Shown here one piece after another: positions 35,492 to 41,410 of a stretch of DNA of 41,692 bases. The stretch spans positions 1 to 41,692 of the forward strand of contig DTTO01000018.1 in the NCBI GenBank assembly GCA_012964665.1, read 5' to 3'. Both the position numbers and the translations under genes were made by a program. The notes below the pieces were generated by a model that was not told where the DNA came from, made no database searches, and saw only the letters and a list, made by a program, of their open reading frames with translations. Every line of letters begins with the position of its first letter. Positions within the stretch are counted from its first letter, which is position 1. Source of the stretch: Fidelibacterota bacterium. GTDB lineage: Bacteria > Fidelibacterota > Marinisomatia > Marinisomatales > TCS55.

Positions 35492-36605
35492 CTATTTTAT
35501 CAAACCAACCATTGGATCAACTACATGACCAACGGGCTGGTTACTGATAAAATCATAGCCGAGTAGATAGCCTAATGTTGTGGCCAATTGACTGGTAGCG
35601 ATCGTATCAGTATTGGTCATTTCACCAATTGCAGGCGTATCCGGACCAATAATGGCTGTCCATAGAAATTCAGCCCCCGGCACACCATCGCCATGTGAAC
35701 CCCAGGCACCATTTTCATAACTTCCACGACCATGGTCAGTTGTTATCATCATGGTTGTTTTACCCCGATACATTTCATTGGATTGTGTCCAATCCCAAAT
35801 CGCTTTTATATAACCATCGGACCGGTTGGCTGTATTTAAATATTTGTCATATTCTCTTTGATGTGCAAACTCATCCGTTTCATCAAAAGAAATATATAAG
35901 AATCGAGGTTTATTCAGTTTTAAATATTCAAAAGCATATTCAAACGTAAACGCGTCCCAACGTACAGCACTGCCATACCATGGAGAGGGAACATCCTCAA
36001 TAAATGTGTTGAGCCACTGCTGTTTTGGGGTAAGCTTTTCATCATAAAATGGGTACCCGCCAGAATTAATAGTAAAATCATTTCTTTCCGTATTGATAAT
36101 CCAGTCAAACACATCCCAAGAAGCAAATGCGGCCACACGATCCTCAAAGCCTTCCTGCTGATCCAAAAATTCAAGCAAATTGATATTTGGATTCCATTCT
36201 TTTTCATTACTATTCACACTATCGTCATTAAAGCCAACTAACAATTCATTATATCCTGGGTAGGAAAACCAATAGGGGTTGGTCAATCGCATGACGCTCC
36301 CCTGTTCTTTATTCCCATAGATTTGACCCTGTTCTCCAATCGTGTTCCAAAAAAAAGGGGAAAACTAATTTTCGTCTTTCACGATAGTCCTCAGACCAAT
36401 ATTTAGCAGAAGTTGCTTCAACATCTTTTACGAACAAGGTATCAAGAACAATTTTTTCATCGGCGCCATAAAACAAATCTTCCCAACGTACACCATCTAA
36501 GGTAATCAGGATTATATTTTCCGTTTTTAATCCTTTGGGGTTTTTAGATAATTCATGGCCACATCCGGAAAAAATCAGTAGACAAAAGAGGATAGGTTTT
36601 TTCAC
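35492..36605 (-). pseudogene. Type I phosphodiesterase/alkaline phosphatase-superfamily lipoprotein interrupted by a one-base frameshift
   Basis: 5' ORF 36309..36605 (lipobox FSGCG, LITLDGVRWEDLF) and 3' ORF 35492..36292 (TTDHGRG, GSHGDG) join cleanly if one A is removed from the A8 run at 36349..36356. Confidence 0.85.
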
Positions 36606-36607
36606 TT

Positions 36608-37627
36608 TTATTCTGGCTTTAAATAGACGAAAAAGAAGTTTGCATAAGTCGAAGAGAATAGACCATAACCTCCATCAACATTTGACTTTGGCATTGTATA
36701 GATATTCTGCGCCAGTGGGTCCCCCTTAAGATATTCGAAGTAATTGTTATCTGTTGCTTGCACGGTAATTAACTGTAATCCATAATAATTAAAAAACAGC
36801 CAGCTCATGTTAACGGGCGCAGTTTCAACTGTCCACACAAACGGATTTTGGCGGTATGGATTATTATTTTCATCACGAAAATAAGCACCTTTCCACAACT
36901 GGTATACTCGGGTTGTATCATAGATTAAATTAATAAATGTACTATCTCTAAAACCATTACTGTTATAATCTTTACCTTCGGGCTCAAGACCTCTTTCAGC
37001 TGCTTCCAATGCGAGAGTTAAAATTCGTACAGTATTATAATCTTCAACATTAAAATCGATTTTAAAAAGCGGATATGAAGCAAAACTGGCAGTAAAACAC
37101 TCCCCCGACCGATAGGTAACCGTATCGATAGTGCCGGTTGCAATAAGTCCCACTGCCGTCATTTTTGCATTATTCGTATTAATATATGTTACCGGAATAC
37201 TTTCTTCCTTACATTGATAATTGGAATTTTTTATGGAGCCAATTTCCATTTTTTCTGGTGTCGTTGTTTTAGCAGTTAACGTTTTCCCATCAACCTCCAC
37301 AGTTAAATTGTATTTTGTTCCAGGTCGGTAAATATAATTTTTCCTCGTGAGATACCGTCCCGGTTTACCTGTAACTGGGTGAGCAATTTCATTTCCGTCT
37401 TTGCTTGAGATCTTCACATTTGCATTCGCAATCCATAATTCATCTGCATCGATTTCTTCATCCAGGGAAGCTGTTCGTGATACAAAAAGTGTATCTACCA
37501 TCGGTAGATTCGCCTGAATATTGCCAAAAACAACGAATTTTTTTTCATAAGGTTCGTCCACATCTTGAATATTGCATCCCAGGAAGATCAACATACTAAT
37601 AGCAGATAATTTTTTAAAAGTATTCAT
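36608..37627 (-). CDS. DUF4249-like lipoprotein
   Basis: Lipobox FLGCN; KFVVFGNIQ..., NANVKISSKDG; ATGA overlap with the TonB-dependent receptor upstream. Confidence 0.75.
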   Translation of the reverse strand: MNTFKKLSAISMLIFLGCNIQDVDEPYEKKFVVFGNIQANLPMVDTLFVSRTASLDEEIDADELWIANANVKISSKDGNEIAHPVTGKPGRYLTRKNYIYRPGTKYNLTVEVDGKTLTAKTTTPEKMEIGSIKNSNYQCKEESIPVTYINTNNAKMTAVGLIATGTIDTVTYRSGECFTASFASYPLFKIDFNVEDYNTVRILTLALEAAERGLEPEGKDYNSNGFRDSTFINLIYDTTRVYQLWKGAYFRDENNNPYRQNPFVWTVETAPVNMSWLFFNYYGLQLITVQATDNNYFEYLKGDPLAQNIYTMPKSNVDGGYGLFSSTYANFFFVYLKPE

Positions 37628-39981
37628 AATTCAAATGAAATACCTATTGAGGGAATAATTGGAAAAATGTTCAGCTGTGATCTTTGTATTCTACCTTCAT
37701 CAGACTCGTCAACATTGGGTTCCCCAAAATCAGGCCGCCCGTTTTTATTAATATCATGCTTTTTTATATCCCAGTCACCATCATCATCTATACCATTGTA
37801 CACATTTCCAAGCTGATAGATGTATCTGAAAACATTTTTTCGATTATATGTGTTGATGATTTGAACAAATAAATCAAATTTGGTATTTCGAATTTTAAAA
37901 TGGCGTACAGCTCCTAAATCTAATCGATGATAAACCGGATAACGTCCGCCATTTCTAGCGCCAGGTATTGTACGGTAACTTAGTTCTGGGTCACCCGGAA
38001 GGTTTTCCAAAAAATATCCATTAATAGGTGTAAAAGCCTGCCCGGATTGAAAGGTCCATTTCCAGTTTAATTCCCACTTTTTAGTAGTTTGGTAAGTTCC
38101 AACCACATTCAATACATGGCTTCGATCCCAATTGGTGAAGTATTCCATCTGATTCATTTGTTTACGACTCACAGACCACGTATAAGCGACCCATCCAGAT
38201 AACCTTCCTGCTGTTTTTTGCCAGAAAACTTCCAACCCATAAGCATATCCATTTGCTAGTGAAAGAATATCAGAAAGTTTTTCATCGGAGACTCTCCCAT
38301 CAGTGGATGCACGTGTTTCTTCAAAGGTTAACATATTACTGATATCTTTATAATAACCCTCAATTTGTAGCTTATAGTCGCGGCCAATAAACTGTTCATA
38401 GCCCAAAACAAACTGAGTGGATTTAGCCGGCTCAACGGAATCATCGATACCAATCCAATTATCCAAAATATTGGGGTTATAATCATCCTGAAAGGTTTCA
38501 ATAAACTGATGGTAATTCCCAATGGCCAGGTTAATAAATCTCGAATCATCAATAATATATTTCATCCCCAGCCGAAAGTCAGGATAGATACTCTGGCTAT
38601 GTCCGGTATATGTGTTTAACCTTAACCCGGGTTCCAAAATAAATTTTAAATTTGGTTTCCATTTAATTTTTGTATATATAGCTGCTTCGTTTGGATTGGT
38701 ACTTAAATCGAAGTCGGTGCTATCACCAAAAGTGTTGATATAACTAATATCTAATTTTTTTAATTGTCCGCCAAAAAAGAAATTGATATCCTGGTTTAAG
38801 AAAAAGGACAGGTTTGCAGAAAAACTGGCATCTTGTATTTTATTATGGCTATTTAATCCAGCATTCCCACCTAAACTAAAGTTGGTAAAAAATTGACTGT
38901 TTGCAAAAAGAAAATTGCCAATCAGTTTTTCATTAAATACTCTTCGGTAGGCCAAACTTCCCGTCCGGTTGCCCCATAAGGCACTAAGGTCAAAATCATT
39001 AAACAAAAAGTCATCGATACCATTATAAAAACTAAATGAAATGCGATCTTTCTCATTCAAATCCATAAATACATGACCTTGAATGTCGTAAAAATAATAG
39101 GGTGGTATTAATTCAGCTGTTTCTGCTGGCAACACCTTTGGTAGGAGTAAATCAAAATAAGTTCTTCTACCTGAGAACAGCCAGGCACCATTTAAGAATG
39201 GACCTTCAAGCGTTGTGTGCGCTGATAGTAAAGACACACTTGTTTTACCTTTAAATTCATTGCGATTTCCTTCCCGGCTCCGTATATCTAATACAGCAGA
39301 TAATCGCCCTCCATATTCAGCATTATAACCACCTTTAATTAATTCTGCCTCTTTTATAGCATCCACAATAAAATTGGAGAATACACCTCCTAAATGTGAA
39401 GGATTATATACTGTGATTCCATCCAGAAGGATCAGGTTCTGATCCGTGTTTCCTCCTCGGATAACTAATCCAGTACTGAATTCAGAAGTGGTAAGTACAC
39501 CTGGTAAGGACTGGATGGTGCGAAATAAATCTGGTTCCGCCAATGCAGGCTGCGCCTTAAGCATTCTTGGCGAAAGGCTAATCCGGCTGGGTTCGATTTT
39601 ATTCAGCCGTTCGATTTCTTCAGCAGTAACATCGACTTCAAAAAATTCAACCGCTTCAATCTCCAATGCTATATCAAGATTTATGGAAGTAATATCAAAA
39701 TCAATTACCTGTTCAAAGCGTTTATATCCCACATAGGATACCACCAGAGTCGCTTCATTCAATTCAATTTCTGAAAGGACATAATATCCATTAATATCTG
39801 TAGCCATACCCTGGCCAGTTTCTTTAATAAATACATTAGCCCCAATCAGCACTTCACCAGAATTGCTGTCAGTAATAAAACCATATATTTGATGAGAACT
39901 CTGGCCCCATAAAAGACCGGACCAAAGCATAAAAATAAGTTTATTTTTTTGCCAAAAGGTCATCCAGGATTTTTTCCGCAT
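37624..39981 (-). CDS. TonB-dependent receptor with N-terminal carboxypeptidase-like domain
   Basis: IYGFITDSNSGEVLIGANVFIKETGQGMATDINGYY; plug GVLTTSEFSTGLVIRGGNTDQNLILLDGITVYNPSH; long beta-rich C-terminus. Confidence 0.92.
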   Translation of the reverse strand: MRKKSWMTFWQKNKLIFMLWSGLLWGQSSHQIYGFITDSNSGEVLIGANVFIKETGQGMATDINGYYVLSEIELNEATLVVSYVGYKRFEQVIDFDITSINLDIALEIEAVEFFEVDVTAEEIERLNKIEPSRISLSPRMLKAQPALAEPDLFRTIQSLPGVLTTSEFSTGLVIRGGNTDQNLILLDGITVYNPSHLGGVFSNFIVDAIKEAELIKGGYNAEYGGRLSAVLDIRSREGNRNEFKGKTSVSLLSAHTTLEGPFLNGAWLFSGRRTYFDLLLPKVLPAETAELIPPYYFYDIQGHVFMDLNEKDRISFSFYNGIDDFLFNDFDLSALWGNRTGSLAYRRVFNEKLIGNFLFANSQFFTNFSLGGNAGLNSHNKIQDASFSANLSFFLNQDINFFFGGQLKKLDISYINTFGDSTDFDLSTNPNEAAIYTKIKWKPNLKFILEPGLRLNTYTGHSQSIYPDFRLGMKYIIDDSRFINLAIGNYHQFIETFQDDYNPNILDNWIGIDDSVEPAKSTQFVLGYEQFIGRDYKLQIEGYYKDISNMLTFEETRASTDGRVSDEKLSDILSLANGYAYGLEVFWQKTAGRLSGWVAYTWSVSRKQMNQMEYFTNWDRSHVLNVVGTYQTTKKWELNWKWTFQSGQAFTPINGYFLENLPGDPELSYRTIPGARNGGRYPVYHRLDLGAVRHFKIRNTKFDLFVQIINTYNRKNVFRYIYQLGNVYNGIDDDGDWDIKKHDINKNGRPDFGEPNVDESDEGRIQRSQLNIFPIIPSIGISFEL

Positions 39982-40465
39982 GAGTATTTACATTCACCTT
40001 TTCATAAATTTTTTCAATTTTTCCCTTAGGATCAATAATAAAAGTCATTCGTTTCGGCCAACCCCTACCCGCAGCACCATAAGCCTTTGACACTTCTTTA
40101 GTTTTATCAGAAAGAAAATTAAATGGCAGCACATATTTATCTTTAAATGCCTTTAACGCTTTTGGGGAATCATAACTGATACCAAAAACGATAATTTTTG
40201 CTTTTTTATATTCGCTGTATACGTCGCGGAACCCGCACGCCTCTTTGGTTCATCCAGGTGTGTCCGCTTTAGGAAAGTAATAAACAATAACTCGCTGTCC
40301 ACGATAATCAGATAGTTTATGTACTTTTCCATCCTGATCTTTCAATACAAAGTCCGGTGCCTTATCACCCACTTTAATGGCTTCAAGCGTGTGGCTACCC
40401 AAAAGCAATGTTGTACTAATAATAATTGAAAGAATGGAAATTGTAAGAAGTAAGGTCATTTTCAT
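39941..40465 (-). CDS. Probable selenocysteine-containing peroxiredoxin (PrxQ/Bcp type) with N-terminal signal/TM segment; in-frame TGA at 40250..40252 read as Sec
   Basis: 525 nt = 175 codons in one frame with one internal TGA. Translation across it: VGDKAPDFVLKDQDGKVHKLSDYRGQRVIVYYFPKADTPG-U-TKEACGFRDVYSEYKKAKIIVFGISYDSPKALKAFKDKYVLPFNFLSDKTKEVSKAYGAAGRGWPKRMTFIIDPKGKI. The TGA sits at the peroxidatic Cys; homology continues in the same frame. Confidence 0.85.
40221..40240 (-). promoter_or_regulatory. Candidate bacterial SECIS hairpin
   Basis: Minus strand GCGTGCGG-GTT-CCGCGACGT: 8 pairs (one G-U) with a single bulged G, 3-nt loop GUU starting 18 nt after the UGA. Confidence 0.65.
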
Positions 40466-40480
40466 AATGTTTAGCTTTAT

Positions 40481-41410
40481 TTAGTCACGCAAATAACTCA
40501 ATGTATCAGTATTAAATGGTGTCGGTTGGATTTCAAACAATTTATAGGCTTCCGTCGCATCACAAACGTTACCTTCCATGAGCATAGTAATTTGATCTGC
40601 AGTAATGGGAAACCAGCTGAAGCGTCCAAGAAAAGTTGCAATCGCTTTTACGCCCAGGGCTGGTGCAGGTATCATCCACTTCTTTTTCCCGCATCCTTCT
40701 GCGATGATTTTTATTAACTCTTTCCAGGAAAAAGCAATTTCTCCACCTAATTCAAATATTTTTTTATGGGTTGATTCCATATCAATTGATTGTACAAAAA
40801 ATCGGGCAACATCTCCTACATGAATTGGTGACATAGCAAACTTTCCAGCATTTAGAGGATTTAGGCCGGGATGAAAAAGAGGTGCTGGTATAGGTAAACT
40901 CAGCATATCTTTTTTCAGTTGGGAACAAAATTCAGGTCTTCCCTCGCCTCGTGGGTCTCCAAAAATTAATGAAGGTCTGAAAATTGTCCAATTTAATTCT
41001 TTATTTATTAAATATTGATCTGCTAGAAATTTTGTTTTTTGATAACCTGTCCCATCCATTTTAACGCCATTTGCGCTCATCAAAATAAATCTTTTTATCC
41101 CAAGATCTACTGCCGCATCCATACAATGCTTTGCACCCTCAAAGTGTAAATCTTCAAAAGTAATCCCTTTTTTAGGGAATTGCCTAATAATGCCAACATT
41201 ATAAATAACTGCATCTGTACCCTTCAAAGTCGATTCAATCGCAGAAGGCTCTGATAACGTACCATTAACAATATTACATTGTTTTGGATTTAATAATTTA
41301 TCATTGGAACCAGGCCGTATTAATAGCTGCGGTTTGTGGTCCTTTTTAATAAGCTCATCGATTAAATAGGACCCAACAAATCCAGTGCCTCCAAATAAGG
41401 CGACTTTCAT
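40481..41410 (-). CDS. NAD(P)-binding epimerase / NDUFA9-like short-chain protein
   Basis: ALFGGTGFVGSYLIDELIKKDH Rossmann motif; DAVIYNVGIIRQFPKKGITFEDLHFEGAKHCMDAA. Confidence 0.88.
   Translation of the reverse strand: MKVALFGGTGFVGSYLIDELIKKDHKPQLLIRPGSNDKLLNPKQCNIVNGTLSEPSAIESTLKGTDAVIYNVGIIRQFPKKGITFEDLHFEGAKHCMDAAVDLGIKRFILMSANGVKMDGTGYQKTKFLADQYLINKELNWTIFRPSLIFGDPRGEGRPEFCSQLKKDMLSLPIPAPLFHPGLNPLNAGKFAMSPIHVGDVARFFVQSIDMESTHKKIFELGGEIAFSWKELIKIIAEGCGKKKWMIPAPALGVKAIATFLGRFSWFPITADQITMLMEGNVCDATEAYKLFEIQPTPFNTDTLSYLRD

Follow-up and report, generated by a model that had tools for sequence, protein, structure and literature searches.

We asked whether two short open reading frames (ORFs) on the minus strand of this locus, separated by a single TGA codon, are the remains of a broken gene or the two halves of one selenoprotein gene that standard annotation has split into fragments. 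The stretch of DNA analyzed here (the window; 41,692 nucleotides) is contig C18 of a 1.59-Mb metagenome-assembled genome (MAG), 75.6% complete, from the Neomarinimicrobiota (SAR406/Marinimicrobia), an abundant uncultured marine phylum. Our answer, reached by computation on sequences, is that the seemingly stop-broken gene very probably encodes a previously unannotated exported enzyme that destroys peroxide and carries selenium at its reactive site.

A peroxiredoxin gene interrupted at its peroxidatic codon

The preliminary description of this DNA had proposed that the ORFs at positions 40250-40465 and 39941-40132 form one continuous frame broken only by TGA, with the TGA on the peroxidatic codon of a peroxiredoxin (Prx) and the resolving Cys kept five residues on. 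This is what we found: the two ORFs share a frame, and reading TGA as selenocysteine (Sec, U) gives 174 residues that end at a TAA stop. The features of the coding sequence are as follows.

39941..40465, minus strand: Sec-PrxQ/Bcp gene, 174 amino acids, single internal TGA, TAA stop
40250..40252, minus strand: TGA at the peroxidatic position, read as the codon for Sec72 in P65-K-A-D-T69-P-G-U72
40235..40237, minus strand: TGC codon of the resolving Cys77, at +5 from Sec and invariant in the alignment

The AhpC-TSA domain (PF00578) spans the TGA, covering residues 32 to 152 and positions 1 to 123 of the 124-position profile (E=2e-40). Among solved structures, those of Bcp/PrxQ proteins come closest (Sulfolobus Bcp1, E=8e-31), and the AlphaFold model has a Prx fold with a pLDDT of about 97 over the domain and Bcp/PrxQ proteins as its top Foldseek matches. 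No aligned sequence departs from Pro65, Thr69, Sec or Cys at 72, Cys77, and Arg139. Among the 28 main ORFs of the window the stop codon is TAA in 17, TGA in 8, and TAG in 3; because TGA is thus an ordinary stop here, nothing points to a global code change, as had been argued before, and we rejected genome-wide reassignment of UGA.

Relatives of this Prx are present in all 40 genomes of the window's family. The peroxidatic codon is TGA in 20 and TGC or TGT in 10 of the 30 best aligned family relatives, all of which have Cys at +5. Extending the set to the order, class, and phylum gives 50 loci with TGA and 24 with Cys, and eight further TGA homologues read singly (L052, L053, L056, L057, L143, L144, L146, and L153) bring the TGA total to 58, although all loci counted are best matches to the query and not a random sample. 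In nearly all 58 the peroxidatic TGA is the sole in-frame stop, and the remaining frame is intact in homologues that have diverged to roughly 50% identity. A maximum-likelihood tree requires just three state changes among the three groups, so that the use of TGC, TGT, and TGA tracks phylogeny; one Sec sequence (L149, from genome G069) falls inside the Cys clade on a long branch. A contig search, with patterns that favor close relatives, returned TGA only in L063, the other readable matches all being Cys forms.

These patterns bear directly on the possibility of a pseudogene or sequencing error, in which a nonsense TGA landed on the peroxidatic Cys codon by chance. The gene is indeed split by a single TGA, a codon that differs from TGC or TGT by one change, and in one genome lacking SelB (G044) the homologue carries a stray TGA at another site. 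However, TGA at the identical codon in 58 homologues from many genomes is more than chance, the exchange follows phylogeny with few changes, and the genome holds the Sec machinery described below. We therefore regard this explanation as refuted by the conservation pattern, and its probability as negligible. The preliminary description had likewise judged a random nonsense mutation unlikely; the exchange of U and C in aligned homologues on which it set store is present, and the aligned relatives show a frame that is intact apart from the TGA in place of unrelated inactivating mutations.

G044 had been a candidate for a TGA without SelB and was dropped, since its active site has TGC and the stray TGA lies elsewhere (C48:29915-30355, L214, LSDYUGHH); with a Cys active site and SelA/SelB undetected, it shows that TGA flags need a positional check. 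A few other loci deserve comment in their own right. The f13 MAG G143 holds, besides its own Sec form, a Cys-form Prx (contig C63, L179) nearly identical to the form of f1 genus g2, through contamination or recent transfer. Identical Sec-Prx proteins occur in two different families (L059 in G158 of f16; L060 in G149 of f15), reflecting recent transfer or a binning error, and one MAG (G019) has two near-identical Prx-receptor loci on C38 and C6 (L049 and L050), probably from strain redundancy.

Selenocysteine machinery and the RNA element after the TGA

The window's genome encodes the apparatus that decoding of UGA as Sec would need. It has a tRNA-Sec (Rfam 68.8 bits against a cut-off of 47 bits; anticodon UCA by ARAGORN), selA (439 bits) and selB (359 bits) side by side on contig C35, and selD on contig C67 (398 bits), which has an in-frame TGA of its own (HGSGUACK). 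Searches by family recovered other TGA-containing genes of this genome (G000), among them a cytoplasmic Sec-Bcp paralogue (C65:41798-42247; L046 1599-2051, minus strand) with the motif STPGUTIEGQGF, whose TGA recurs in almost all genomes of the family. A SelW/Rdx-like protein with an in-frame TGA (EYCNEUNYL) is encoded at C66:9828-10046 (L213, L215) and is a further predicted selenoprotein.

An in-frame UGA is also compatible with genome-wide or stochastic readthrough that inserts a residue other than Sec, for example Trp or Cys, and near-cognate tRNA readthrough occurs in bacteria. However, this genome uses UGA as an ordinary stop, dedicated tRNA-Sec, SelA, SelB, and SelD are present, UGA occupies redox-active Cys positions, and clades lacking SelB have Cys, which makes this explanation very improbable.

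SelB was detected in 167 of the 245 genomes of the phylum, and it is probable from this distribution that much of the SAR406/Neomarinimicrobiota can use Sec. Neither clade f9, which has small genomes, nor clade f23 (16 and 9 genomes) yielded a SelB, and the Prx homologues of both have Cys only and no TGA at the peroxidatic codon. Several MAGs have the TGA with SelA/SelB undetected (e.g., G022, 93% complete), and G033, G177, G187, and G188 have SelA; as selA and selB are adjacent, the loss of one contig could explain such cases. Three SAR406 single-cell genomes have been listed with only an "orphan" SelD (PMC5029168), and these earlier calls may reflect incomplete genomes.

Just downstream of the TGA lies a candidate RNA signal.

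40221..40240, minus strand: bacterial SECIS-type hairpin GCGU-GCGG-(GUU)-CCGC-g-ACGU, with positions 40230-40232 as the apical loop

With a spacing of 17 nt after the TGA, a 3-nt loop (GUU) that starts with GU, and 8 bp interrupted by one bulge (-8.6 to -9.7 kcal/mol), the hairpin agrees with the published bacterial SECIS model in loop, spacing, and stem (criteria from PMC13188914). Two of the follow-up checks suggested in the preliminary description, for selA, selB, selD, and tRNA-Sec and for a SECIS element, thus came out in favor of Sec. Compared with dinucleotide shuffles the native hairpin has an ordinary energy (z=-0.42), and a strict hairpin scan at a threshold of -7.5 kcal/mol, reached by 44% of Sec and 22% of Cys homologues, separates the two weakly. 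Because the folding energy of the single sequence is not significant, the argument for the RNA element is drawn from covariation, codon constraint, and phylogeny.

Because MAFFT put three hairpins out of register, pairs were counted by script on loop-centered sequences. All 31 distinct Sec sequences, a count that excludes four with a 5-nt loop or another register, form the three inner pairs, which show compensatory changes from G-C to A-U, C-G, and U-A. GCGG/CCGC becomes GCA/UGC in G103, G104, and G106, where the peptide changes from CGFR to CSLR, and GUA/UAC in G069, where it becomes CSIR. Across the 31 sequences 89% of cells pair in register, compared with 72, 46, 42, and 36% when the register is slid by -2, -1, +1, and +2. 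The outermost pairs are poorly kept (16 of 31 for the sixth pair). At the codon level, Gly78 is GGG in 39 of 46 Sec homologues (15% in window usage) and Phe79 is TTC in all 42 (23%), a bias looked for in the Cys homologues and not seen there; synonymous randomization gave a mean z of -1.44 for Sec and -0.63 for Cys homologues. Judged by these codon counts, pairing in the hairpin forces rare codons at Gly78 and Phe79. The hairpin downstream of the TGA in the cytoplasmic paralogue is different, with the loop CGGGAU and a spacing of 21 nt.

The N terminus and the receptor-linked neighborhood

The location of the protein and its genomic company involve four further features.

40400..40459, minus strand: N-terminal hydrophobic helix, residues 3-22, putative signal or anchor (hydropathy, AlphaFold)
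40481..41410, minus strand: SDR-type NAD(P)-binding protein, upstream, separated from the Prx start by 15 bases; shared by 24 of the 42 homologous loci
37624..39981, minus strand: TonB-receptor-like protein (CarboxypepD_reg + Plug), downstream; at 37 of 42 homologous loci
36608..37627, minus strand: putative lipoprotein overlapping the receptor's stop; no Pfam match; also adjacent to the receptor in the closest relative

The preliminary description had read the N terminus as a signal peptide or membrane anchor, and the homologues are consistent with this. Before the domain, the maximal 17-residue hydropathy exceeds about 1.4 for almost every homologue of the same type (the lowest values being 0.84 and 1.24); the hydrophobic segment is absent, by the same measure, from the cytoplasmic paralogues. 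Because this hydrophobic N terminus is common to the same-type homologues, the protein is likely exported, a prediction drawn from hydropathy. A true Sec-PrxQ that is not exported would have an N terminus acting as a cytoplasmic-facing membrane anchor, or a later start that removes it, and would fit the low AlphaFold confidence over residues 1 to 30, which include the helix, as well as the dependence of the export call on hydropathy. Nevertheless, homologues repeatedly show a short positive N terminus and then a hydrophobic stretch despite low identity there, those of genus g2 have lipoprotein-like, lipobox-like motifs (IIMSSC/IIFSC), and the cytoplasmic paralogue begins directly at the domain; we therefore consider this alternative unlikely.

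The link to a TonB-type receptor, which the preliminary description had noted in this contig, is real and widely conserved. Neighbors were counted in 1.5-kb flanks of the 42 loci, and the order SDR-Prx-TonB-receptor-like is common to Sec and Cys forms. The likely start of the receptor-like gene is at 39930, 10 bases past the Prx stop, and the spacings of about 15 and 10 bases are consistent with a single SDR-Prx-receptor operon. Further along the minus strand, a phosphodiesterase/sulfatase-like gene (window 35492-36605) is split by a frameshift beside a T run; both halves are in one frame in the relative G019 (L049), and the split may be a sequencing error or a recent lesion.

So tight and conserved a linkage could also suggest that the protein is a Sec-containing thiol-disulfide or maturation factor acting on the adjacent outer-membrane receptor rather than a peroxidase. 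It has, however, the full Prx signature PxxxTxxU plus the conserved Arg139 instead of a UxxC oxidoreductase motif, and its nearest structures are Bcp/PrxQ peroxidases, so that such a role seems quite unlikely.

Proposed function and comparison with known peroxiredoxins

Taken as a peroxidase, the product is, with high confidence, an exported PrxQ/Bcp protein, probably anchored in the inner membrane and periplasmic, whose UGA at 40250-40252 would be decoded as Sec by SelB and tRNA-Sec under the direction of the hairpin at 40221-40240; every in-silico check that the preliminary description had suggested for one Sec-containing peroxiredoxin in place of two ORFs was positive. We infer that Sec72, with Thr69 and Arg139, would attack H2O2 or an alkyl hydroperoxide and become a selenenic acid, which Cys77 would resolve to a Sec72-Cys77 selenenylsulfide. 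Re-reduction of this bond would fall to a periplasmic thiol carrier, perhaps the TlpA/ResA-like protein and the DsbD-like transporter that lie together on contig C15 as candidate electron donors. Since the gene probably shares an operon with an outer-membrane TonB-type receptor, the peroxiredoxin may guard envelope functions against peroxide; a selenium-based peroxidase would then sit next to an uptake receptor in the envelope.

A broader proposal, whose chances we consider evenly balanced, is that the Neomarinimicrobiota have an exported Sec-Prx subfamily, unlike those described, that shares a transcript with one specific TonB-type receptor and defends the outer envelope or the receptor from ocean peroxide. 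It would have switched repeatedly between Sec and Cys, for example in G069, whose Sec form lies in the Cys clade and has a SECIS of its own with different pairing, and reverted to Cys where SelB was lost. The swap of selenium and sulfur in this enzyme can be traced through the whole phylum, and one conserved operon offers a natural experiment that includes Sec forms, Cys forms despite SelB, and Cys forms in SelB-less clades.

Sec-containing peroxiredoxins are already known in bacteria, as had been stated at the outset: the TxxU peroxiredoxin (COG1225/Bcp) is an established selenoprotein family (PMC9312934), with 253 "Prx" sequences in the GOS data (PMC2398784), occurrence in 78 organisms (PMC5029168), and a Sec-peroxiredoxin of Eubacterium acidaminophilum for which PMC13188914 cites Sohling et al. 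2001. Since the family is established, the gene is a new member and not a new family. The 2026 review that defines the PxxxTxxU motif (PMC13188914) makes no mention of Marinimicrobia, the periplasm, or signal peptides, and we found no paper on Sec proteins in Neomarinimicrobiota in the searchable, mostly open-access literature; within that scope, neither the exported subfamily with its receptor link nor the occurrence of Sec throughout SAR406 seems to have been reported.

The gene scores under all NCBIfam cut-offs, with 54.8 bits for PrxU (NF040737), far below the 270-bit cut-off, and 137.5 bits for E. coli-type Bcp/PrxQ (NF006960), slightly under the curated cut-off of 140 bits. It shares with the latter the Prx fold, a peroxidatic residue with the resolving residue at +5, and the conserved Thr and Arg, but has Sec in place of Cys and is probably exported. 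The cytoplasmic Sec-Bcp paralogue has TGA at the same codon and is 48% identical, but at 150 amino acids it is without the N-terminal extension and the Cys at +5, and it forms a separate clade with 100/100 support. Known Sec-Prx proteins (PF00578/COG1225) resemble ours in domain, in the TxxU position of Sec, in having Cys homologues, and in a SECIS directly downstream; as in other PxxxTxxU members, the AhpC-TSA domain extends across the UGA, the UGA aligns with Cys, and the host has Sec machinery. The protein described here may differ from them in its predicted N-terminal export segment, and it differs in its conserved linkage to a TonB-type receptor in the Neomarinimicrobiota.
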